DNA from: Flavobacteriaceae bacterium | GTDB lineage: Bacteria; Bacteroidota; Bacteroidia; Flavobacteriales; Flavobacteriaceae | Reading direction: 5' to 3' | Length of the DNA stretch: 64,000 nucleotides | Assembly: GCA_009886755.1 (NCBI GenBank) | Contig: QXYU01000046.1 | Span: 1 to 64,000, forward strand | Shown: positions 28,400-42,316 of the stretch, piece by piece | Numbering within the stretch: the stretch's first letter is position 1 | Layout of the letters: each line of letters opens with the position of its first letter | Position numbers and translations under genes: made by a program | The notes under the pieces: generated by a model | The model's input: only the letters and a program-made list of their open reading frames with translations | Databases searched by the model: none | Told to the model about the DNA's origin: nothing

Positions 28400-28407
28400 C
28401 ACCAATA

Positions 28408-28458
28408 CGAGGAAGGATTTGACTGATTGCAACCTCGATAAAAAAATGCTAAAGCAGT
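28408..28458 (+). promoter_or_regulatory. SAM-II riboswitch aptamer upstream of metK
   Basis: P1 is CGAGG (28408-28412) with CCTCG (28433-28437). The 20-base loop contains GATTTGACTGATTGCAA, matching the SAM-II loop core (GATTTAAC...ATTGCAA in the well-known metX example). After P1 comes GATAAAAAAAT, then GCTAAA (28448-28453), and CAGT (28455-28458), which pairs with ACTG (28422-28425) in the loop. This is an H-type pseudoknot, as in SAM-II. The order and spacing of conserved elements and the position before SAM synthetase make the call strong. SAM-II normally shuts off translation when SAM is bound. Confidence 0.87.
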
Positions 28459-28511
28459 GTTGCTTTTACCAAAAGACAAATCCTTCCCCCATTTAAAAGC
28501 AACAAAAAATG
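28451..28511 (+). promoter_or_regulatory. Predicted expression platform of the metK SAM-II riboswitch
   Basis: Two exact 11-bp complementarities are visible. GGAAGGATTTG (28411-28421, inside the aptamer) pairs with CAAATCCTTCC (28477-28487). TGTTGCTTTTA (28458-28468) pairs with TAAAAGCAACA (28494-28504), ending 4 bases before the metK ATG. A short hairpin AAAGCA (28451-28456) / TGCTTT (28461-28466) competes with the second helix. In the SAM-free fold the first helix plus hairpin leave the start region open; in the SAM-bound fold the second helix closes it. The pairings are seen; the switching logic is inferred. Confidence 0.7.
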
Positions 28512-29765
28512 TCATACTTATTTACCTCAGAATCTGTCAGTGAAGGCCACCCCGATAAGGTCGCCGATCAAATCAGCGATGCCTTACTCGATCATTTCTT
28601 GGCTTTCGATGCCGACAGTAAAGTAGCTTGTGAAACCCTTGTCACCACGGGTCAAACCGTTTTGTCTGGAGAAGTAAAAAGCAAAACCTATTTGGACGTT
28701 CAGCAAATTGCGCGAGACACCATCAATAAAATTGGCTACACCAAAGGAGCCTATCAATTCAGTGGAGATTCCTGTGGGGTGATTTCCCTAATCCACGAAC
28801 AGTCCCAAGACATCAACCAAGGGGTGGATCGTGCTTCCAAAAAAGAACAAGGTGCCGGCGACCAAGGCTTGATGTTTGGGTATGCCACGGACGAAACCGA
28901 GAACTATATGCCGTTGGCACTCGATTTGTCTCACAAGATTTTGATTGAACTAGCGGCGTTGCGTCGCGAAAACAAAGACATCACCTATTTACGCCCAGAT
29001 GCCAAATCACAGGTGACGATTGAGTACAACGATCAAGACCAGCCGGTTCGCATCGATACCATAGTGGTTTCCACCCAACACGATGCTTTTTCCAATAATG
29101 ATGAAAAGATGTTGGCCAAGATCAAAAAGGATATTGTCGAGATTTTAATCCCGCGGGTGGTAGCCCAACTGCCTGTATCCCTACAGGCACTTTTTAATGA
29201 TGACATTAGGTATCATATCAATCCTACCGGGAAATTTGTCATCGGAGGACCGCATGGCGATACCGGATTGACGGGTCGTAAAATCATTGTGGATACCTAC
29301 GGCGGAAAAGGAGCCCACGGAGGCGGTGCCTTTAGCGGGAAGGACCCCAGTAAGGTGGATCGCTCAGCGGCCTATGCCGCTCGTCATATTGCCAAAAATC
29401 TTGTGGCAGCTGGAGCCGCCAAAGAAGTCTTGGTTCAGTTGAGCTACGCCATTGGTGTGGTCGCACCCACTTCGGTGTTTGTAAACACCTACGGCACCAA
29501 CCAAACGAACTTGACGGATGCCGAATTGGCCGCACAAATCCAAACGCTTTTTGATTTGACGCCCTATGGAATTGAAACTCGTTTGAAGTTGCGCAACCCG
29601 ATCTATTCCGAAACGGCAGCTTATGGTCATATGGGAAGAGCACCCGAAACGGTTTCCAAAACCTTTGAGTCTCCTTATAGCGGAAAGGTCACCAAGGAAG
29701 TAGAACTTTTCACCTGGGAAAAATTGGATCAAGTCGCCGCCATTAAAAAGGCATTTCAACTTTAA
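28509..29765 (+). CDS. metK: S-adenosylmethionine synthase
   Basis: 418 residues. It makes SAM from methionine and ATP. Family motifs include F-T-S-E-S-V-S-E-G-H-P-D-K at the start, G-A-G-D-Q-G-L-M-F-G-Y-A, G-P-H-G-D-T-G-L-T-G-R-K and GGGAFSGKDPSKVDRSAAY. C-terminal A-A-Y-G-H-M-G-R completes the signature. It is the first gene of a methionine cluster running to 37.2 kb and is under the SAM-II riboswitch, so its product SAM should feed back on its own translation. Confidence 0.97.
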   Translation: MSYLFTSESVSEGHPDKVADQISDALLDHFLAFDADSKVACETLVTTGQTVLSGEVKSKTYLDVQQIARDTINKIGYTKGAYQFSGDSCGVISLIHEQSQDINQGVDRASKKEQGAGDQGLMFGYATDETENYMPLALDLSHKILIELAALRRENKDITYLRPDAKSQVTIEYNDQDQPVRIDTIVVSTQHDAFSNNDEKMLAKIKKDIVEILIPRVVAQLPVSLQALFNDDIRYHINPTGKFVIGGPHGDTGLTGRKIIVDTYGGKGAHGGGAFSGKDPSKVDRSAAYAARHIAKNLVAAGAAKEVLVQLSYAIGVVAPTSVFVNTYGTNQTNLTDAELAAQIQTLFDLTPYGIETRLKLRNPIYSETAAYGHMGRAPETVSKTFESPYSGKVTKEVELFTWEKLDQVAAIKKAFQL

Positions 29766-31175: not shown

Positions 31176-32341
31176 GTACTCAATTTGAGACCAAAGCGAT
31201 TCGAGAGCAGTTAGAGCGTTCCCAGTATATGGAGCACTCCACTCCGCTCTACCTGACCTCTAGCTTTGTCTTTGAGGACGACGAAGACATGCGTGCCTCT
31301 TTTGCAGAAGAAAAGAAACGCAATATCTACAGTCGTTTTACAAATCCAAACTCGGAGGAGTTTGTCAATAAAATCTGTGTACTGGAAGAAGCGGAAGCAG
31401 GGGTTGCCTTTGCCAGTGGCATGGGAGCTGTGTTTTCCACCTTTGCAGCACTGCTCAATAGCGGCGATCATATTGTCTCCGCCCGATCTGTTTTTGGTTC
31501 AACCCATTCCATGTTTACCAAGTTTCTACCCAAATGGAATATTGAGACCACCTATTTTGATGTCAGCCAACCCGAAACGATCGAGGCTTGTATCCGTCCA
31601 GAAACCAAACTCATTTATGCAGAAACGCCCACCAATCCGGGTGTGGATCTTTTGGATTTGGAACAGTTGTCACAAATCGCTAAAAAGCATCATCTGATTT
31701 TGGTGATTGACAATTGTTTTGCCACTCCTTACCTTCAGCAACCCATCCAATTTGGAGCGGATTTGGTGATTCATTCCGCCACCAAATTAATCGACGGACA
31801 GGGACGGGTCTTAGGCGGCGTGACCGTTGGTAGAAAAGACTTGATTCGTGAAATCTTTCTCTTTGCCCGCAACACTGGTCCGGCCTTGTCTCCCTTTAAC
31901 GCTTGGGTGCTTTCAAAGAGTTTGGAAACCCTGGCGGTGCGTTTGGATCGCCATTGCGATAGTGCTTTGGCTTTGGCACAGTTTCTAGAAGCCCATCCGC
32001 AGGTCAACTGGGTGAAATATCCCTTCTTGCCCTCACATCCGCAATATGAGATCGCCAAAAAACAAATGCGAAAAGGGGGGAATATTATTTCTTTTGAAAT
32101 AAAAGGCGGCATTGAATCGGGTCGTGTATTCCTCAATGCCATTCAAATGTGTTCGCTATCGGCCAACCTTGGGGATTCCCGAACCATTATAACCCACCCA
32201 GCCTCAACGACCCACAGCAAACTCCAGGAAGAAGACCGTCTATCGGTGGGTATTACCGATGGGATGATTCGTCTTTCCGTTGGATTGGAGCATCCAGATG
32301 ATATTCAAAATGATGTAGCAAACGCTTTAGAACAACTATGA
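31172..32341 (+). CDS. metZ: O-acyl-homoserine sulfhydrylase (Cys/Met metabolism PLP enzyme)
   Basis: 389 residues. Family motifs: S-R-F-T-N-P-N near residue 55, A-F-A-S-G-M-G-A, Y-A-E-T-P-T-N-P, and H-S-A-T-K-L-I-D-G-Q-G-R with the PLP Lys at ~204. The S-x-x-T-K-x-I-x-G-Q-G-R form and the length match MetZ-type direct sulfhydrylases that make homocysteine from an O-acylhomoserine and sulfide. Cystathionine gamma-synthase is the alternative, but no cystathionine lyase is nearby and the homocysteine methyltransferase follows directly. It overlaps OsmC upstream and MetH part 1 downstream by 4 bases each. Confidence 0.87.
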   Translation: MSTQFETKAIREQLERSQYMEHSTPLYLTSSFVFEDDEDMRASFAEEKKRNIYSRFTNPNSEEFVNKICVLEEAEAGVAFASGMGAVFSTFAALLNSGDHIVSARSVFGSTHSMFTKFLPKWNIETTYFDVSQPETIEACIRPETKLIYAETPTNPGVDLLDLEQLSQIAKKHHLILVIDNCFATPYLQQPIQFGADLVIHSATKLIDGQGRVLGGVTVGRKDLIREIFLFARNTGPALSPFNAWVLSKSLETLAVRLDRHCDSALALAQFLEAHPQVNWVKYPFLPSHPQYEIAKKQMRKGGNIISFEIKGGIESGRVFLNAIQMCSLSANLGDSRTIITHPASTTHSKLQEEDRLSVGITDGMIRLSVGLEHPDDIQNDVANALEQL

Positions 32342-33348
32342 AAGGACTTGAATCAATTTTAAAGGAGCGAATACTGGTGCTTGATGGCGCCATGGGAACC
32401 ATGATTCAAGCCTATGGCTTTAAGGAAGATGATTTTCGTGGGTCTCGTTTTCAGGAGCATCCCTCTCCTTTGCAAGGGAATAACGACTTGCTAACACTCA
32501 CACAGCCAGAAGCTATAAAGGCCATTCACGGAAAGTATTTTGAGGCCGGTGCGGATATCGTAGAAACCAACACCTTTTCTTCCACCTCTATTGGGATGGC
32601 GGATTATCAAATGGAAGACTTGGTTTATGAGCTGAATTACGAAGCCGCTACAATCGCCAAAGAAGTAGCCGATGCTTTTACCGCCAAAGAACCCAACAAA
32701 CCTCGTTTTGTTGCAGGATCTATTGGGCCCACCAACCGAACCGCTTCCATGTCTCCCGATGTTAACGATCCCGGATTTCGTGCGGTTACTTTTGAAGATT
32801 TGGTAATCGCCTATAAAGAGCAGGTTGAGGGTTTGGTGGCAGGAGGTGCCGATATCCTTCTTGTCGAAACGGTCTTTGACACCCTCAATGCCAAAGCGGC
32901 GCTTTATGCGATTGATGAACTCAAACAAAAAAATCACTGGGAGATTCCGATCATGGTTAGTGGGACCATTACCGATGCCAGTGGTCGCACTCTTTCAGGG
33001 CAAACGGTTGAAGCCTTTGCGGTTTCGGTATCTCATATTCCGTTGCTTAGCATTGGTTTTAATTGCGCCTTGGGCGCAGACCAATTATATCCGTATTTGA
33101 AGCGTCTTTCTGATTTGACTCCTTTTGCGGTTTCGGCGCATCCCAATGCAGGATTGCCCAATGCCTTTGGCGCCTACGATCAAACCGCAGAAGAAATGCG
33201 GGATCTGATCAAAAATTATGTAGACAATAAGCTAGTGAACATCATCGGTGGCTGTTGCGGAACCACACCAGAACACATTCGTTTGATTGCGGAAGTCGCC
33301 CAACAAAGCTCCCCTAGATTGTATAAAAAAGTATCTCATGTCCAATAA
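32338..33348 (+). CDS. metH: Methionine synthase, N-terminal module (homocysteine-binding)
   Basis: 336 residues, corresponding to the first domain of cobalamin-dependent MetH encoded as a separate gene. [12 protein letters not shown] opens the domain. The zinc-binding cysteines are in F-N-C-A-L-G (~242) and [11 protein letters not shown] (~305-306). It activates homocysteine for methyl transfer and must act together with the protein encoded next. The last codons overlap the start of the second metH gene by 11 bases in another frame. Confidence 0.93.
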
Positions 33349-36022
33349 AGCACCGACACTTCAACTTTCGGGCTTGGAATTACTCGAAGTAACGCCCGAT
33401 ACCAATTTTGTGAATATTGGGGAGCGCACCAATGTAACCGGTTCTCGAAAATTCTTACGATTGATTGAAAATGGAGATTTTGAGACAGCTGTAGAGGTGG
33501 CTCGTGAGCAGGTCGAAGGCGGAGCTCAGATCATCGACATCAATATGGATGAGGGGCTTATTGATGGCGTAAAAGCCATGACGACTTTTTTGAACCTGAT
33601 CGCTGCTGAGCCAGATATTGCCAAAGTTCCTGTGATGATCGATAGCTCCAAATGGGGAATCATAGCGGCTGGTTTGCGCGTGGCACAAGGCAAAAGTGTG
33701 GTGAATTCCATTAGCCTCAAAGAAGGGGAGGAAGCCTTTATTCGTTTGGCTAAAAAAATCAAGCAATTTGGAGCTGCCGTTGTAGTAATGGCTTTTGATG
33801 AAGACGGACAGGCTGACAACCTAGAACGCCGCATCGAAATTTGTCAACGCTCCTATAATATCTTGGTGAATCAAGCGAACTTTGCGCCGCAGGATATCAT
33901 TTTTGATCCCAATATTTTCCCAGTAGCTACAGGTATGGAGGAACACCGTCGGAATGCTTTAGACTTTTTCCTAGCAGCCCAATGGATTCGTGAAAATTTA
34001 CCGTATGCCAATGTCAGTGGTGGTGTGAGTAATGTGTCCTTTTCCTTTCGTGGAAACAATGCTGTGCGAGAAGCCATGCATTCTGCTTTTTTATATCATG
34101 CCATTCAGCATGGGATGAATATGGGAATTGTAAATCCAAGTCTGTTGGAAGTTTATGATGAGATTCCCAAAGATTTATTGGAACACGTAGAAGACGTTTT
34201 GCTAGACCGTAGAGACGATGCTACGGAGCGTTTGCTCGATTTTGCGGAAAGCGTCAAAGGGCAAACCAAAGAAAGCAATCAAGAAAAAAACGTATGGCGG
34301 GAAAAGCCCTTGCAGGAACGTATTTCCTATTCGTTAGTCAAAGGGATTGATGCGTTTATTATAGAGGATGTCGAAGAAGCGCGAACGCAAGTAAAGCGCC
34401 CTTTGGAGGTTATCGAAGGACATTTGATGTCTGGGATGAATATCGTTGGGGATTTGTTTGGAGAAGGGAAAATGTTTCTTCCTCAGGTGGTCAAGTCGGC
34501 GCGTGTGATGAAAAAAGCCGTAGCCTACCTACAACCCTTTATCGAAGATGAAAAAGACAGCGCAACGCAAAGTGCTGGAAAAATACTAATGGCCACTGTA
34601 AAAGGGGACGTTCACGATATTGGGAAAAACATTGTGAGTGTGGTTTTGGCCTGTAATAATTTTGAAATTATCGATCTTGGCGTGATGGTTCCCCCGGAGA
34701 AAATCTTGGAGGCAGCTGTCCAAAACCAAGTGGATGTGATTGGTCTATCCGGTTTGATTACTCCATCGCTAGATGAAATGGTATTTGTAGCGCAGGAGAT
34801 GCAACGTCAGAAAATAGAGATTCCCCTTTTGATTGGAGGAGCCACAACTTCCAAAGCACACACAGCGGTCAAAATTGCTCCCATAAGTGAGAATCCGGTG
34901 ATCCATGTGAACGATGCTTCCCGAGCTGTGACGGTAGTGAGTAACCTGCTGAGCAAAGACCAACAAAAAACCTATGTGGCTGGAATTCGATCGGACTACG
35001 ATGCGTTCCGTGAAAAATTCTTGCAGCGCAGTGAACGAAAAACCTATCTGTCACTGACCGAAGCACGCTCTAATGCGCTGACGTTAGACTGGAAAAACTA
35101 TCAGCCCCTCAAACCCAAAAACTTGGGGACCCATACCCTTCGTGATTTCCCATTGGATCGTTTGGTGCCTTATATCGATTGGACTCCATTCTTCCGTTCT
35201 TGGGATTTGCATGGCAAATATCCTGAGATTCTCTCGGATGCTGTGGTGGGACCTCAGGCGACAGAATTGTTTGCCGATGCACAAAAAATGCTAACCGTAC
35301 TTAGGGAGGAAAAGTGGTTGGAGGCACGAGCTCGTTTTGGACTGTTTCCTGCACACAGTCAAGGCGATGATATTATTTTGTACGATCCAGAGCAGCCCGA
35401 AAAACCCATCAGTAAACTGTTGACCCTGCGACAACAATTGCAGAAAAAAGCCGGTCAGCCCAATATTGCGCTATCGGATTTTATGGCTCCCTCAACAGTG
35501 GGCTATCAAGACTATTGTGGTGCCTTTTGTGTGACAACAGGTTTTGGCACCCAAGAAAAAGCAGCTGCCTTTGAAGCGGACAATGATGACTATAGCGCTA
35601 TTATGATCAAAGCTTTGGCAGACCGTTTGGCGGAAGCCTTTGCGGAATATTTGCATGAGGCCGTACGCCAAAACACTTGGGGCTATGCCAGCGATGAGGG
35701 GCTGTCAAATGAAGAACTAATCGCGGAGCAATACAAAGGAATTCGTCCGGCACCGGGCTATCCCGCATGTCCGGATCACTTGGAAAAAAGGGAACTCTGG
35801 AAACTCCTTGAAGTAGAAGAAACCATTGGGGTAAGCCTGACCGAAAGTTTGGCTATGTGGCCAGCGGCTTCGGTTTCTGGCTACTATTTTGCCCATCCCA
35901 AAGCACAGTATTTTGGCTTGGGAAAAATCACAGAAGAGCAGTTGGAAGACTATAGCCAACGACGTAATATTTCGATTGACGAAGCACGAAAGTGGCTCAA
36001 TCCAAACCTTGTAACCATATGA
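33338..36022 (+). CDS. metH: Methionine synthase, folate-, B12- and SAM-activation modules
   Basis: 894 residues from ATG 33338. The pterin-binding barrel begins with [13 protein letters not shown] (~20) and has D-I-N-M-D-E. The cobalamin cap and Rossmann domain carries [10 protein letters not shown], with the B12-coordinating His at ~425. The C-terminal reactivation domain has [12 protein letters not shown] (~802-813). Only the homocysteine domain is missing, and it is encoded by the preceding gene. A TTG start 51 bases upstream was rejected because it would give 17 residues foreign to the family. Confidence 0.95.
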
Positions 36023-36236: not shown

Positions 36237-37193
36237 ATGAAAATTTTAGACCATATCGCCCAATCCCAAGGGAAAACACAGTTTGCCTTTGAAATACTTC
36301 CGCCCGTAAAGGGACAACATATCGATTCTATTTTTGCAGGGATTGATCCTTTGATGGAGTTTCAACCTTCCTTTATTGATGTAACCTATCACCGAGAGGA
36401 ATATGAGCTTAAAACCTTGGACAACGGTTTACTCGAAAAACGAATGATCCGTAAAAGACCCGGTACCGTGGGGATCTGCGCTGCCATTATGAGTAAGTAC
36501 AATGTGGACGCCGTACCTCATGTGCTTTGTGGGGGTTTTACCAAAGAAGACACCGAAAACCTCCTTATCGATTTGGATTTTTTAGGCATTGATAACGTGG
36601 TAGCCCTTCGAGGGGATGCGGTGAAAAACGAAACCTATTTTACTCCAACCGAAGGCGGACATCACTATGCTAGTGAGCTGGTAGCTCAAATTGCTGATCT
36701 CAACAAAGGGGTTTATTTGGATGAAGACCTTGAACAGGCTTCCGCTACTGATTTTTGTATTGGCGTTTCCGGTTATCCCGAAAAGCATATGGAAGCTCCG
36801 AGTTTGGATACGGACATTCAATACTTAAAAGAAAAAATTGCCGCTGGTGCCGATTATATCGTTACCCAAATGTTCTTTGATAACAGCAAGTTTTTTGCAT
36901 TTCAGGACAAGTGCCGAGAAGCGGGCATTGAGGTGCCGATTATTCCCGGACTAAAACCGATTGCCACAAAGCGACAGTTGAACTTGTTACCGCATCGCTT
37001 TCATGTGGATCTGCCAGAGGACTTAATCAAGGAAGTAATGGTTTGTAAAGACAACAAAGCCATTAAGCAGGTGGGTGTTGAATGGTGTATTACACAAAGT
37101 AAGGAATTACAACAGGCAGGCGTTCCTTTTCTCCATTACTATTGTATGGGGAAATCAGAAAACATCAAAAACATTGCAGAGGCGATTTTTTAA
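36237..37193 (+). CDS. metF: 5,10-Methylenetetrahydrofolate reductase
   Basis: 318 residues. It reduces methylene-THF to methyl-THF, the methyl donor for MetH. Motifs: F-A-F-E-I-L-P-P-V-K-G with the catalytic Glu, F-I-D-V-T-Y-H, H-V-L-C-G-G-F-T-K, V-A-L-R-G-D that contacts FAD, and GADYIVTQMFFDNSKFF. It lies 214 bases beyond metH and probably has its own promoter or partial readthrough. Its stop interlocks with that of gldA on the other strand. Confidence 0.95.
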   Translation: MKILDHIAQSQGKTQFAFEILPPVKGQHIDSIFAGIDPLMEFQPSFIDVTYHREEYELKTLDNGLLEKRMIRKRPGTVGICAAIMSKYNVDAVPHVLCGGFTKEDTENLLIDLDFLGIDNVVALRGDAVKNETYFTPTEGGHHYASELVAQIADLNKGVYLDEDLEQASATDFCIGVSGYPEKHMEAPSLDTDIQYLKEKIAAGADYIVTQMFFDNSKFFAFQDKCREAGIEVPIIPGLKPIATKRQLNLLPHRFHVDLPEDLIKEVMVCKDNKAIKQVGVEWCITQSKELQQAGVPFLHYYCMGKSENIKNIAEAIF

Positions 37194-38086
37194 GTACTTG
37201 TCAACTCGTTAAAACGTTGTTCCAAGTTTTTGCTTTTGTGTTGGAGGGCGACAATCTTGAGACCGTTGTCGTGCGCAAAATCAAAGACCATGGGGCGGCG
37301 GTCTTCCTCAGTGTCAAATTCAATTTCGTATTGAAAGTCGAATACATTTTTGACGCTTACAGCATTTTTTATGCGCTCCAAAGCAACGGGTTCCACCCGA
37401 TAGTCAAAACTGACTTCTACAATTTGTTTTTCTTGTGCTCTGAGATTTTGAAGCGACTCATCCAAAACGATTTTTCCTTGGTGTAGAATCACCACCCGAT
37501 CACACAGGGCTTCTACTTCGGATAAAATATGGGTGGAAAGGAAAATAGTTTTTTCTTTTCCCAAATCCAAAATCAGTTGCCGAATCTCCCCAAGTTGGTT
37601 GGGGTCAAGCCCAGTGGTAGGCTCATCCAAGATAAGCAGCTGGGGATCGTGAAGCAAGGCAGCGGCCAGCCCCACCCGTTGTTTATAGCCCTTGGATAGG
37701 GTCGTTATTTTTTTATCCAGATGTTGTTCAAGTCCTACTTTGGCAGCGATGTCTTCAATTGGTATTGCCGTAAGACCGTAAAGCCTTCCTACAAAAAGGA
37801 GGTATTCTTTGACATACATATCGCCATAAAGCGGATTGTTTTCCGGGAGATAGCCCAGTTGTCTTTGCACGCTTTGTGGATCTTTTTTTAGGTCGTGTGT
37901 CTCAAAACGAATGCTTCCTTCCCATTGGGTCAAATAGCCCGTTAGGATTTTCATCAAGGTTGTTTTACCTGCTCCGTTGGGACCTAAAAAACCAATGATT
38001 TCTCCTTTTTTGAGACGTAGGGTTAAGTTTTTTAAAATGACTTGGTCGCCATAGCTTTTACTTACGTTCTCAAGATGGAGTTGCAT
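37190..38086 (-). CDS. gldA: GldA-type gliding-associated ABC transporter ATPase
   Basis: 298 residues from ATG 38086. Walker A G-P-N-G-A-G-K-T, Q-loop region Y-L-P-E-N-N-P-L-Y (the P-E-x-N-P-L-Y form is a GldA hallmark), signature L-S-K-G-Y-K-Q-R-V and Walker B L-L-I-L-D-E-P. The ~80-residue C-terminal extension is typical of GldA. In Flavobacterium, GldA works with GldF and GldG and is tied to gliding motility; those partners are not in the window. A -7 box TATCTTTG (38106-38099, minus strand) excludes the in-frame TTG at 38101 as start. Confidence 0.85.
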   Translation of the reverse strand: MQLHLENVSKSYGDQVILKNLTLRLKKGEIIGFLGPNGAGKTTLMKILTGYLTQWEGSIRFETHDLKKDPQSVQRQLGYLPENNPLYGDMYVKEYLLFVGRLYGLTAIPIEDIAAKVGLEQHLDKKITTLSKGYKQRVGLAAALLHDPQLLILDEPTTGLDPNQLGEIRQLILDLGKEKTIFLSTHILSEVEALCDRVVILHQGKIVLDESLQNLRAQEKQIVEVSFDYRVEPVALERIKNAVSVKNVFDFQYEIEFDTEEDRRPMVFDFAHDNGLKIVALQHKSKNLEQRFNELTST

Positions 38087-38098
38087 GCTGCTTTTTTT

Positions 38099-38106
38099 CA
38101 AAGATA
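38099..38106 (-). promoter_or_regulatory. -7 box (TATCTTTG) for gldA
   Basis: A perfect TAnnTTTG match on the minus strand, 12 bases before the ATG at 38086. Confidence 0.5.
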
Positions 38107-38237
38107 TAACTATATCGCATATTAAAAGGGAAACGATTCGTCTCAGGTGAGACTCGTTAGGATTTTAGACAGCCCTGCTTTTTCTGTTGCAAAAAGACAT
38201 CCGTTGGCCGTTCTAGTAAAAAAAGAAAGGCAAAAAT

Positions 38238-38267
38238 TTGTTTTTTAGCCCAAGCCCATTAGATTTG
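38238..38267 (+). promoter_or_regulatory. Promoter of the aromatic amino acid operon (TTG-N19-TAGATTTG)
   Basis: TTG at 38238-38240, exactly 19 bases, and TAGATTTG at 38260-38267. Transcription should start near 38272, about 10 bases before the leader peptide ATG. Confidence 0.75.
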
Positions 38268-38282
38268 TAGCTTATTACAATT

Positions 38283-38351
38283 ATGAACACACAGTTTACC
38301 TATTATCGCAGCTTTTTTTACTTCTTTTCAGAAGGTGGCCGGGCTTTGTAA
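38283..38351 (+). CDS. Phe/Tyr-rich leader peptide of the pheA operon attenuator
   Basis: 22 codons, ATG 38283 to TAA 38349-38351. Phe is at codons 5, 11, 12, 14 and 15 and Tyr at 7, 8 and 13, so eight of 22 residues are the end products of the downstream pathway. They are clustered as F-F-Y-F-F at codons 11-15. The tail is S-E-G-G-R-A-L. It follows a strong promoter and precedes a terminator and pheA. This is the layout of ribosome-mediated attenuation: scarcity of charged tRNA-Phe or tRNA-Tyr stalls the ribosome at the cluster. Confidence 0.82.
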   Translation: MNTQFTYYRSFFYFFSEGGRAL

Positions 38352-38383
38352 TTAGTAAACACTATATAAAACATAAAAAGTCC
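38341..38383 (+). promoter_or_regulatory. Antiterminator pairing of the pheA attenuator
   Basis: GGGCTTT (38341-38347), within the last codons of the leader, can pair with AAAGTCC (38377-38383), the 5' arm of the terminator, with one G-U. A ribosome at the leader stop would cover 38341-38347 and let the terminator form; one stalled at codons 11-15 would not. Confidence 0.65.
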
Positions 38384-38409
38384 TGACCATTGTTCGGGAC
38401 TTTTTTTTT
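38376..38409 (+). terminator. Attenuator terminator upstream of pheA
   Basis: Stem GTCCTGA (38380-38386) / TCGGGAC (38394-38400) with loop CCATTGT and one G-U, extended by AAAA/TTTT, then nine T at 38401-38409. It lies immediately before the pheA ATG at 38413. Confidence 0.85.
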
Positions 38410-38412
38410 GAT

Positions 38413-39234
38413 ATGACACAAAAAATTGGAATACAAGGCGTGGCCGGATCTTTTCACCATCAAGTGGTGATGGAATATTTTGGTGAATCGTCACCCATCA
38501 GCCCCTATGACAGCTTTCCTTCGCTCGTTCAGGGCCTTTTGGCTGGAGCTGTTGATGTGGCCGTCATGGCCATTGAGAATTCCATTGCGGGTTCTATTAT
38601 TCCAAACTACGCCCTCATTGACCATAACAATCTGGTGGTGACAGGAGAACACTATCTCAATATCAATCACCAATTACTGGCCTTGTCGGGAGAAACCCTT
38701 GAAACCATCCAAGAGGTTCGTTCGCATCCGATGGCCTTGTTGCAGTGTGCCAATTTTTTTCAGCAACATCCGCATATTCGTTTGGTGGAAGCTGACGATA
38801 CTGCCGCTGTAGCACAGCGTATTGCAGAAAATCAATGGAAAGGATTAGCGGCGATTGCGAGTGCCGCAGCTGCCAAACGCTATGATTTAGCAACTTTAGC
38901 ACCGTCCATTCAAACGATTGAAAACAACATTACCCGTTTTGTGATCGTAGAAAGAGAAGTTCCTGAATTGAATGCAACAGTGAACAAAGCGGCTTTGATG
39001 TTTACTCTTGACCACCAGCGCGGGAGTCTGGCGACCATTCTCAATGTGATGAGTGACTGCCAACTCAATCTGACCAAAATACAATCGCTACCTGTGATTG
39101 AAATTCCCGGTAAATATGCCTTTTTTGTTGATGTTACTTTTGATGCGCTAGCGCATTACACTAAGGCCAAGTCCATCCTAACGATTATGGCGCAACACTT
39201 TAAAGTGTTGGGCGAATACACCAAGAAAAAATAA
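38413..39234 (+). CDS. pheA: Prephenate dehydratase with ACT domain
   Basis: 273 residues without a chorismate mutase domain, which here is fused to the DAHP synthase. Catalytic region: A-I-E-N-S-I-A-G (~53-60), the H-P-M-A-L-L-Q-C motif, and the catalytic T-R-F at residues 174-176. An ACT domain covers ~195-270 (R-G-S-L-A-T-I-L-N-V); the usual E-S-R-P effector motif reads I-Q-S-L-P, so phenylalanine binding may differ. First gene of a four-gene operon under attenuator control. Confidence 0.94.
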   Translation: MTQKIGIQGVAGSFHHQVVMEYFGESSPISPYDSFPSLVQGLLAGAVDVAVMAIENSIAGSIIPNYALIDHNNLVVTGEHYLNINHQLLALSGETLETIQEVRSHPMALLQCANFFQQHPHIRLVEADDTAAVAQRIAENQWKGLAAIASAAAAKRYDLATLAPSIQTIENNITRFVIVEREVPELNATVNKAALMFTLDHQRGSLATILNVMSDCQLNLTKIQSLPVIEIPGKYAFFVDVTFDALAHYTKAKSILTIMAQHFKVLGEYTKKK

Positions 39235-39235
39235 C

Positions 39236-40381
39236 ATGACAGCCAACCGATTAGCCAGTGTTAAAGAATATTATTTTTCCACCAAATTGCGGGAAGTAGC
39301 GGCATTGGTGCAGGCAGGCAAACCCATTATCAATATGGGGATTGGCTCTCCCGACTTGGCACCCCACCCAGCTGTGGTGGAAGCTCTCAATGCAGGAATG
39401 GCACATCCCAAAGCCCATATGTATCAAAGCTACCAAGGCTTGCCTGAATTGCGAAACGCCATGGCAGACTTCTACCAGCGGTTTTACCAGGTGTCTTTAG
39501 ACCCACTATCCGAGGTGCTGCCCCTTATGGGATCCAAAGAAGGAATCATGCATATATCCATGGCCTTTCTCAACAAAGGCGATCAGGTATTGATTCCCAA
39601 TCCGGGTTATCCGACCTATAGTTCGGTGACGAAATTGCTAGAAGCAGAACCCGTATTCTACGACTTGCAAGCTGAAAACCAGTGGCAACCCGATTTCGAA
39701 GCACTGGAAGCTTTGGATACTCGCAAGGTGAAATTAATGTGGCTTAATTATCCACATATGCCCACAGGAGCCATTGCCCAAAAAGGAAGCTTTGAAAAAT
39801 TAATTATATGGGCCAAGGAACGTTCCATTCTGATTATCAATGACAACCCCTATAGTTTTATTCTAAACAAACAGCCGGAAAGTATCTTGTCTATTCCTGG
39901 AGCCAAAGAAGTCGCATTGGAATTAAATTCCTTGAGTAAAGCTTTTAATATGGCGGGTTGGCGCGTAGGGATGTTGAGTGGTCGATCGGAGACACTCCAA
40001 GAAGTGTTGAAAGTAAAAAGCAATATGGACTCTGGAATGTTTTACGGCATTCAGCAAGGGGCTATTGCGGCACTTCAAGCAGATCCCCAGTGGTTTGAAG
40101 ACCTTAATACCGTCTACCGAAAGCGACGCGATAAAGTAGAAGCCCTTGCCACGACTTTAGGAACTACTTTTGACTCCCAAAGTGTAGGAATGTTTGTTTG
40201 GGCTAAGCTGCCGGCAGAAGTCTCCGATGCGGAAGCCTATATCGATTGGATCCTGTATGAAAAAGATATATTCATCACGCCCGGAAGTATTTTTGGGAGC
40301 CAAGGAGCCGGCTATATCCGTTTTTCACTGTGCGTGTCTGAAGAAAAAATTCAAGAAGCACTAAACCGAATGCAATCATGA
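39236..40381 (+). CDS. Class I/II aminotransferase of the aromatic operon
   Basis: 381 residues. PLP enzyme with M-G-I-G-S-P-D-L-A-P near the N-terminus, Y-Q-S-Y-Q-G-L-P-E-L-R, the cofactor-site N-D-N-P-Y-S-F, and the Schiff-base Lys in N-S-L-S-K-A-F-N-M-A-G-W-R-V-G. It sits between pheA and tyrA with 1-4 base gaps or overlaps. It therefore probably transaminates phenylpyruvate and hydroxyphenylpyruvate, or prephenate. An aspartate or LL-DAP-type activity cannot be excluded from sequence. Confidence 0.87.
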   Translation: MTANRLASVKEYYFSTKLREVAALVQAGKPIINMGIGSPDLAPHPAVVEALNAGMAHPKAHMYQSYQGLPELRNAMADFYQRFYQVSLDPLSEVLPLMGSKEGIMHISMAFLNKGDQVLIPNPGYPTYSSVTKLLEAEPVFYDLQAENQWQPDFEALEALDTRKVKLMWLNYPHMPTGAIAQKGSFEKLIIWAKERSILIINDNPYSFILNKQPESILSIPGAKEVALELNSLSKAFNMAGWRVGMLSGRSETLQEVLKVKSNMDSGMFYGIQQGAIAALQADPQWFEDLNTVYRKRRDKVEALATTLGTTFDSQSVGMFVWAKLPAEVSDAEAYIDWILYEKDIFITPGSIFGSQGAGYIRFSLCVSEEKIQEALNRMQS

Positions 40382-41232
40382 AAATCGCTGTTATAGGAAT
40401 TGGGCTGATAGGAGGTTCTTTAGCCAAAGAACTCAAAAAGCAATACCCTCAAGCTACTTTCTTGGGGATCGATCATAATGCAGCGCATTTGGAAACGGCC
40501 ATTGCCCAAGAAACGGTTGATACGGTTGCTACACTCTCGGATATAGACAAGGCAGATCGCGTCATACTTAGTATTCCTGTCAAAGCAAGCGTGGCGTTGC
40601 TGCCGCAGCTATTGGATCGGATTTCGGAAAATTGCTTGGTATGGGACGTAGGGTCGACCAAAAAGAGTATTTGTGAAGCGGTGGCATCGCATCCCAAACG
40701 AGAGCAGTTCCTCGCAGCACATCCTATTGCTGGAACGGAAAATTCAGGACCCCAAGCCGCCCATTTAGGTTTGTTTGACGGAAAACCACAAATTTTATGT
40801 GAAGCCAAAAAAACCCGAGCCGACTTGCTGGATTGGGCCAAAAAAAGCTTTCGCCAAATGGGTATGTACTTGCGCTTTATGGAGCCAAAGGAACATGATA
40901 AGCATATGGCTTATGTGTCCCATTTATCACATATCAGCTCCTTTATGCTCGGGAAGACCGTTTTGGAACGAGAAGATGATGAACAAAATATTTTTGATCT
41001 AGCAGGGAGTGGATTTGAATCAACAGTCCGTCTGGCAAAGAGTTCTCCAGAGATGTGGCTTTCCATCTTTGAAGACAATAAAGCGCCCATTTTGGATATT
41101 TTGACCGCCTACATCGACAACCTAGAGAATTTTAGAAAGCAACTGGAAGAAGGGGCTTACAACGACTTATACAATCAACTGAAAAATACAAATCAATTAA
41201 AAACCATCCTTAACGGAATTAAACCAAATTAA
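40378..41232 (+). CDS. tyrA: Prephenate dehydrogenase
   Basis: 284 residues. N-terminal Rossmann motif G-I-G-L-I-G-G-S-L-A. S-I-P-V-K-A and V-G-S-T-K-K-S-I precede the substrate region A-A-H-P-I-A-G-T-E-N-S-G-P with the catalytic His, and H-M-A-Y-V-S-H-L-S-H-I-S-S is the second helical domain signature. It makes 4-hydroxyphenylpyruvate with NAD+. No ACT domain is attached. It overlaps the aminotransferase by 4 bases and precedes the DAHP synthase by 1 base. Confidence 0.93.
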   Translation: MKIAVIGIGLIGGSLAKELKKQYPQATFLGIDHNAAHLETAIAQETVDTVATLSDIDKADRVILSIPVKASVALLPQLLDRISENCLVWDVGSTKKSICEAVASHPKREQFLAAHPIAGTENSGPQAAHLGLFDGKPQILCEAKKTRADLLDWAKKSFRQMGMYLRFMEPKEHDKHMAYVSHLSHISSFMLGKTVLEREDDEQNIFDLAGSGFESTVRLAKSSPEMWLSIFEDNKAPILDILTAYIDNLENFRKQLEEGAYNDLYNQLKNTNQLKTILNGIKPN

Positions 41233-41233
41233 A

Positions 41234-42316
41234 ATGGAAAATACTCCCGCAATGCGTGACTGGCTAACCGATTTTGGTCTCGATCATCCTTTGGTGATTG
41301 GGGGGCCTTGTAGTGCTGAAACAGAAGAACAGGTGATGAAAATCGCCCAAGAATTAAAAGATAGCGACGTCACGGTATTTCGTGCCGGTATATGGAAGCC
41401 GCGAACCCGTCCTGGAAATTTTGAAGGTGTTGGTGCCATTGGTCTCAAATGGCTCCAGCGTGTCAAAGAAGAAACAGGGATGCTTACGGCGACGGAAGTA
41501 GCTAATAAAGACCATGTGAAATTGGCTTTGGAACACGATATTGATGTTTTATGGATAGGTGCTCGTTCAACGGTGAGCCCTTTTATTGTGCAAGAAATTG
41601 CCGATGCCTTGGAAGGCACGGATAAAATTGTGTTGGTCAAAAACCCGGTAAACCCTGATGTGGCTTTGTGGCTAGGTGGGGTGGAACGTTTGTACACTGC
41701 AAACATCAAAAACCTAGGTTTGATCCATCGTGGTTTCTCCAGTCATGGTAAAAGCAAATACCGCAACAATCCCGAATGGCAAATTGCCGTTGAAGTACAA
41801 AATCGTTTTCCAGACCTCCCTTTGATTTGTGACCCCTCACACATTACAGGCAAGCGCGATATGATTTTTGACACCTGTCAAATGGCATTGGACCTTAATT
41901 TTGATGGCCTGATGGTTGAAAGCCATTGGGATCCAGACAATGCTTGGAGTGATGCTGCACAGCAAGTAACACCTGCGGCTTTGGTTCAAATCATGGAAGA
42001 CCTCAAAATCCGTAAAACGACCACAGAGGAAGAAAGCTATCAGTCCGAGTTGCAAAATTTACGAGCTCAGATTGATGTAGCAGATCAAACGATATTGGAT
42101 ACTTTGGGCAAGCGAATGAAGGTGGCTGAGGCCATTGGAGAACTCAAAAAATCGAATAATGTAGCGGTGCTTCAAAGCAAACGTTGGAATGAGATTTTGG
42201 GAAAAATGGTTTTGGAAGGAGAGGAACGCGGTTTGAGTGAAGAGTTTGTATTGAAGCTTTTCAAAGCGATTCACCAAGAATCCATCAATCACCAAGAACA
42301 GATTGTGAAAGCATAG
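41234..42316 (+). CDS. Fused DAHP synthase - chorismate mutase
   Basis: 360 residues. Residues ~1-260 are a type I-beta DAHP synthase: I-G-G-P-C-S-A-E-T (metal Cys), F-R-A-G-I-W-K-P-R-T, L-V-K-N-P-V-N-P, H-R-G-F, and L-I-C-D-P-S-H-I-T-G. Residues ~270-355 are an AroQ chorismate mutase (L-R-A-Q-I-D-V-A-D, K-R-M-K-V-A-E-A-I-G). The fusion joins the first step of the shikimate pathway to the branch step toward Phe and Tyr, and the mutase domain may mediate feedback. A strong terminator follows, closing the operon. Confidence 0.92.
   Translation: MENTPAMRDWLTDFGLDHPLVIGGPCSAETEEQVMKIAQELKDSDVTVFRAGIWKPRTRPGNFEGVGAIGLKWLQRVKEETGMLTATEVANKDHVKLALEHDIDVLWIGARSTVSPFIVQEIADALEGTDKIVLVKNPVNPDVALWLGGVERLYTANIKNLGLIHRGFSSHGKSKYRNNPEWQIAVEVQNRFPDLPLICDPSHITGKRDMIFDTCQMALDLNFDGLMVESHWDPDNAWSDAAQQVTPAALVQIMEDLKIRKTTTEEESYQSELQNLRAQIDVADQTILDTLGKRMKVAEAIGELKKSNNVAVLQSKRWNEILGKMVLEGEERGLSEEFVLKLFKAIHQESINHQEQIVKA

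Follow-up and report, generated by a model that had tools for sequence, protein, structure and literature searches.

A putative Phe/Tyr leader-peptide attenuator upstream of the pheA operon in Flavobacteriaceae

The pheA operon and its leader region

The analyzed window is a stretch of 64,000 nt from the 1.78-Mb assembly (51 contigs) of a Flavobacteriaceae MAG. Among the named relatives, an uncultured Flavobacteriaceae MAG (locus L032) is the closest, with a PheA protein of 91% identity. The region studied here separates pheA from a divergent ABC-transporter gene (37190-38101, minus strand). In 5' to 3' direction it comprises a Bacteroidota-type promoter, an open reading frame (ORF) of 22 codons and an intrinsic terminator, followed by pheA as the first of four tightly packed genes. 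The following features were assigned:

38237-38240, + strand: -33 element TTTG of the predicted Bacteroidota sigma-A promoter (motif scan, family promoter score)
38260-38267, + strand: -7 box TAGATTTG, consensus TAnnTTTG (consensus and position -12 to -5 from PMC9723704)
38283-38351, + strand: leader peptide ORF MNTQFTYYRSFFYFFSEGGRAL, 22 codons with 5 Phe and 3 Tyr, TAA stop (ORF reading, similar ORF in relatives)
38294-38314, + strand: arm 1 of the protector helix, consisting of GTTTAC (38294-38299), ATTA (38302-38305) and AGCTT (38310-38314), inside the Phe/Tyr codons (MFE of the free leader, swap and recoding tests)
38321-38334, + strand: inner hairpin of the protector, CTTCT-TTTC-AGAAG (MFE fold)
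38341-38347, + strand: arm 2, 5' strand of the antiterminator, GGGCTTT, codons 20-22 (7-bp duplex with arm 3, -9.1 kcal/mol)
38349-38360, + strand: stop codon and post-stop segment TAATTAGTAAAC, pairing with arm 1 (MFE fold)
38375-38386, + strand: arm 3, 5' strand of the terminator, AAAAAGTCCTGA, of which AAAGTCC (38377-38383) also pairs with arm 2
38394-38410, + strand: arm 4, 3' strand of the terminator, TCGGGACTTTTT, with the T-run (terminator -13.2 kcal/mol)
38413-39234, + strand: pheA, prephenate dehydratase, first gene of the putatively regulated operon (Pfam PDT, E 3.4e-55)
39236-40381, + strand: PLP aminotransferase, class I/II (Pfam Aminotran_1_2), 1-nt gap to pheA
40378-41232, + strand: tyrA, prephenate dehydrogenase (Pfam PDH; NCBIfam NF006307 above cut-off), 4-nt overlap with the aminotransferase gene
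41234-42316, + strand: bifunctional DAHP synthase/chorismate mutase (Pfam DAHP_synth_1 and CM_2)

The promoter of the window reads TTTG-N19-TAGATTTG (38237-38267) and is followed by 15 nt up to the ATG of the leader ORF. Promoter, gap, ORF, the antiterminator strand GGGCTTT with its partner AAAGTCC and the terminator before pheA were all found where the initial annotation had placed them. In a transcriptome study of Flavobacterium psychrophilum, TAnnTTTG is described as the sigma-A -7 box, located at -12 to -5 (PMC9723704, 2021). Applying this spacing, transcription would start near position 38272 and leave a 5' UTR of about 11 nt. Upstream regions were scored against TTTG-N17-22-TAnnTTTG with a maximum of 10, and a score of at least 9 was reached upstream of 105 of the 143 leaders found in the family (see below), compared to 8.4 expected from shuffles. 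A scan for sigma-70 promoters gave no site at the leader, since the phylum uses TAnnTTTG.

The leader ORF and its pairing partners in the family

Phe and Tyr account for 8 of the 22 codons of the ORF in the window. These eight fall within 12 codons, a density that was reached in none of 3000 shuffles of the local region. For comparison, we analyzed the upstream regions of pheA from one genome per genus of the same family together with named relatives (149 loci). An ORF with at least 5 Phe/Tyr in 12 codons precedes pheA in 143 of these loci and is followed by a terminator in every one of the 143. When the threshold is raised to 7 Phe/Tyr in 12 codons, 139 of 149 loci still have the ORF, compared to 2 of 149 on the reverse strand and 4 of 745 shuffles. 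Among the six loci for which no leader was called, one (L008) visibly keeps it, cut by the contig end; in the other five of the 149 none was seen. The leader ORFs of the family have 18-29 codons with a dense Phe/Tyr run, and related leaders share an aromatic core, e.g., NWFYFFF or FYFYFFF. As the comparison suggested in the initial annotation would predict, Phe and Tyr codons are conserved while their nucleotides change (TTT 514/TTC 248, TAT 399/TAC 105). Trp codons occur in 88 of the 143 leaders and are missing in that of the window. The mixture of Phe and Tyr codons had been taken to fit an operon which makes both amino acids, and the Pfam domains of the four gene products (PDT, aminotransferase, PDH, DAHP synthase and CM) agree with this.

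The terminator stem (38375-38405) consists of 12 bp with a loop of 7 nt and is directly followed by the T-run, which ends 2 nt 5' of the pheA ATG (38413). The last codons of the leader contain a segment that resembles arm 4 of the terminator and, like it, pairs with arm 3. This pairing of GGGCTTT with AAAGTCC (7 pairs, one of them G-U) had already been proposed from the window and was found to covary in the family. From 30 leaders aligned freely with MAFFT, RNAalifold retrieved no structure other than the terminator, because the leaders differ in length and their 5' parts are misaligned. Partner-swap and synonymous-recoding tests were therefore used in place of alignment-based covariation. Cognate 2:3 duplexes are more stable than swapped ones among the 143 leaders (mean -10.8 vs. 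-8.0 kcal/mol, z -16, kinship ignored). In the more conservative swap within groups of similar peptides the effect is weak, with the cognate partner being better in 55 of 95 cases. At one core position of the helix, a C in arm 3 is accompanied by a G in arm 2 in 64 of 65 leaders and a T by an A in 63 of 68, although arm 4 accepts a G opposite this T in 30 of the 68. Arm 2 thus appears to be selected for its pairing independently of arm 4. By covariation and swap tests, the antiterminator (2:3) and the terminator (3:4) are mutually exclusive.

The ORF sequence of the free RNA forms a long protector hairpin which sequesters GGGCTTT, with 38294-38314 pairing to 38341-38360 in the window. This 1:2 helix joins early codons to arm 2 and to the region around the stop codon. 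With at least 6 outer pairs, it is part of the MFE structure of all 143 leaders, and an inner hairpin of at least 4 pairs is found in 125 of them. Cognate 1:2 halves beat swapped ones in 127 of 143 leaders (z -17.5, kinship ignored) and, when swapped within groups of similar peptides, in 75 of 95 cases. When the last codons of the window are recoded synonymously, only 3% of the variants pair equally well with arm 3. Across the family, both the 2:3 (p 4e-24) and the 1:2 helix (p 2e-21) are better paired with the natural codons than after synonymous recoding, which argues for selection on RNA pairing beyond the peptide. The initial annotation had described a switch with only one competing helix, unlike the classical layout, and had missed the protector hairpin over GGGCTTT. 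Given the covarying 1:2 helix, this point has to be revised and the layout is the classical one of 1:2, 2:3 and 3:4 helices. Many substitutions between the window (38305-38345) and L032 have rearranged the inner hairpin, and both sequences are still able to form one. The two do not differ in arm 2, in the post-stop segment or in the terminator.

Ribosome position and the proposed switch

The distance from the last Phe, Tyr or Trp codon to the first base of arm 2 has a median of 11 nt (IQR 9-11) and is 13 nt in the window. About 11 nt is also the approximate distance from the A-site codon to the leading edge of the ribosome. The effect of the ribosome was calculated in a folding model, in which a fixed ribosome footprint is masked, arm 4 is not yet made and pairing is at equilibrium. 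For the window, the model predicts the antiterminator with a probability of 0.97-0.98 while the ribosome occupies the Phe/Tyr codons and of 0.82 when it is on the next Ser codon. The probability is 0.00 on Glu17 as well as on the stop codon and 0.10 without a ribosome. The family means are 0.95 on Phe/Tyr/Trp codons, 0.00 on the stop codon and 0.68 without a ribosome. According to the model, a stalled ribosome would leave arm 2 free and a finishing ribosome would cover it.

Based on the ORF, the terminator, the covarying arms and the spacing in relatives, we consider it very probable that a ribosome-mediated transcription attenuator controls the pheA-aminotransferase-tyrA-DAHP synthase/chorismate mutase operon, as read from the window at the outset. 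In the proposed mechanism, the leader RNA would be transcribed and terminated in response to charged tRNA. A shortage of charged tRNA-Phe or tRNA-Tyr would slow down the leader ribosome on the Phe/Tyr codons (codons 5-15), where it would hold arm 1 and the inner hairpin open, with its leading edge just short of arm 2. The free arm 2 (GGGCTTT) would then pair with arm 3 (AAAGTCC), no terminator would form and transcription would go on. With ample charged tRNA, the ribosome would reach the end of the ORF and cover arm 2, arm 3 would pair with arm 4 and transcription would stop before pheA. On an untranslated leader, or once the ribosome has been released, the 1:2 hairpin would hold arm 2 and termination would be favored. 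In folding calculations the full leader at equilibrium favors the terminator. Therefore, antitermination would need a kinetic advantage.

The contribution of the protector is less clear. At equilibrium and without a ribosome it beats the antiterminator in only 44 of the 143 leaders, and in the closest relative L032 it is predicted not to hold (antiterminator 0.99). The protector helix thus seems to be weak in many leaders, with a variable and uncertain strength. From the modelled family means and the count of 44, masking of arm 2 by the ribosome is the robust step of the model and, in view of this count, may still be the dominant one. A block of pheA translation by the hairpin was considered as well. 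It is possible in the window, where the T-run lies so close to the ATG, but not as a general mechanism, because the terminator of some relatives is located well upstream of pheA.

If masking were all that matters and the 1:2 helix had no function, untranslated RNA would tend to read through. In line with this, the equilibrium of the free RNA without arm 4 lies on the side of the antiterminator and not of the protector in 99 of 143 leaders, including L032. However, the covariation of the 1:2 halves in both swap tests and the bias of synonymous codons toward 1:2 pairing argue against a helix without function, and for the window the protector is the favored fold. We therefore regard a switch without a functional protector as unlikely. 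Even less probable is an arrest of the ribosome by the nascent peptide, similar to SecM or TnaC, which would respond to a ligand such as free Phe instead of tRNA charging. Such an arrest could account for the conserved hydrophobic aromatic run and its conserved position, but the aromatic residue at each position changes freely, so that the composition alone is kept, and the residues at the C-terminus change along with the RNA pairing. The amino acid content moreover matches the product of the operon. Terminators and small ORFs are each common singly, and a plain constitutive terminator next to a chance ORF or a small functional protein would require no regulation. This is highly improbable in view of their family-wide co-occurrence, the covariation of mutually exclusive helices, the constant spacing of 11 nt and the constraint that acts on synonymous codons at the RNA level. 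A T-box or small-molecule riboswitch acting on the same terminator can practically be dismissed, since no Rfam model matches 38200-38450 at its gathering score and the 22-codon ORF fills the leader with little room for an aptamer, even though riboswitches occur in the same genome (SAM-II at 28403).

Distribution, known systems and further leaders

Phe/Tyr leaders with terminator and antiterminator before pheA were also found in other families of the same order (f2 and f15) and in several families of the class beyond the order. Such a leader is not evident at pheA in the class families c27, c30, c38 and c69. In eight genomes of about 0.6 Mb from one family of the same order (f16; L166, L170-L173, L175-L177), pheA is kept and a Phe/Tyr leader is not evident. 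This suggests that leader control was lost in these reduced genomes.

The pheA/pheST and trp attenuators of E. coli combine a leader ORF rich in codons of the end product with mutually exclusive 1:2, 2:3 and 3:4 helices and a terminator before the first gene. The leader of the window shares all of these features. It differs from the E. coli leaders in its mixture of Phe and Tyr codons (with Trp in addition in the 88 relatives mentioned above), in its Bacteroidota promoter, in the lack of an evident Shine-Dalgarno sequence and in the position of arm 2 inside the last codons. It also stays below the gathering scores of the Rfam leader families: Thr_leader, Leu_leader and others reach at best 19-28 bits, far below their cut-offs of 47-90. 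No T-box or riboswitch covariance model of Rfam matched at the leader, and neither Rfam nor NCBIfam yielded a family for the element or its peptide. This type of switch is ordinary and well known, and the added value of the present analysis is the comparative anatomy. To our knowledge, leader-peptide attenuators are hardly catalogued in Bacteroidia; a comparative paper by Lopatovskaya et al. from 2010, cited in PMC4833913, may cover Bacteroidota.

In the transcriptome of F. psychrophilum, a structured 5' element without Rfam hit was reported upstream of pheA, which is also present in other genera of Flavobacteriaceae, and strong clues to leader-peptide attenuation were described before amino-acid operons of this species (PMC9723704). 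Gene and family are the same as in the window. The main text of that study gives no peptide, helices or range for the pheA element, which are described here, and the two are presumably the same attenuator. The histidine leader of bacilli (hisS/hisZ) was presented by its authors as the first known leader-peptide case beyond Proteobacteria and Actinobacteria (PMC2965389, 2010). It resembles the leader of the window as an attenuator outside these two phyla and differs from it in phylum, amino acid and gene.

If the proposed reading is correct, classical leader-peptide attenuation would be a standard and conserved control of aromatic amino acid synthesis in Flavobacteriaceae, widespread in Bacteroidia and matched by no Rfam family. 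It is conceivable, but rather doubtful at present, that an ancestral attenuator of Bacteroidia integrates all aromatic amino acids in a single switch (Phe and Tyr, with Trp in 88 of the 143 Flavobacteriaceae) by coupling of ribosome and RNA polymerase, in a phylum which largely initiates translation without Shine-Dalgarno sequences. In that case, the two must be tightly coupled in the phylum, if only along the initial ~100 nt of a transcript. We know of no direct test of transcription-translation coupling in Bacteroidota. The pheA leader could serve as a ready natural reporter for it, because the proposed switch would work only when the ribosome keeps up with RNA polymerase.

Other attenuators of the genome were checked for at hisG and at chorismate-binding genes. 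A His-rich leader (MNLKTHHTHHS) with a strong terminator precedes hisG (L203:1237-1272, contig C2) and is likely a histidine attenuator. A Trp-containing leader, MNNRKTIWWPLDDWKHS, with a terminator (L205, reverse strand, ~683-736, contig C46) is located ~165 nt upstream of a trpE-like gene for a chorismate-binding protein. With these His and Trp leaders also present, the organism probably uses leader-peptide control for several amino acids. The SAM-II riboswitch of the window (28403-28462, + strand, 78.9 bits) is located directly upstream of a metK-like gene (28509-29765). This gene is followed by a metX-like gene, a PLP sulfhydrylase gene, two overlapping ORFs for a methionine synthase (32338-33348 and 33287-36022) and a metF-like gene at 36237, with the names of this met-like cluster being read from the translations.
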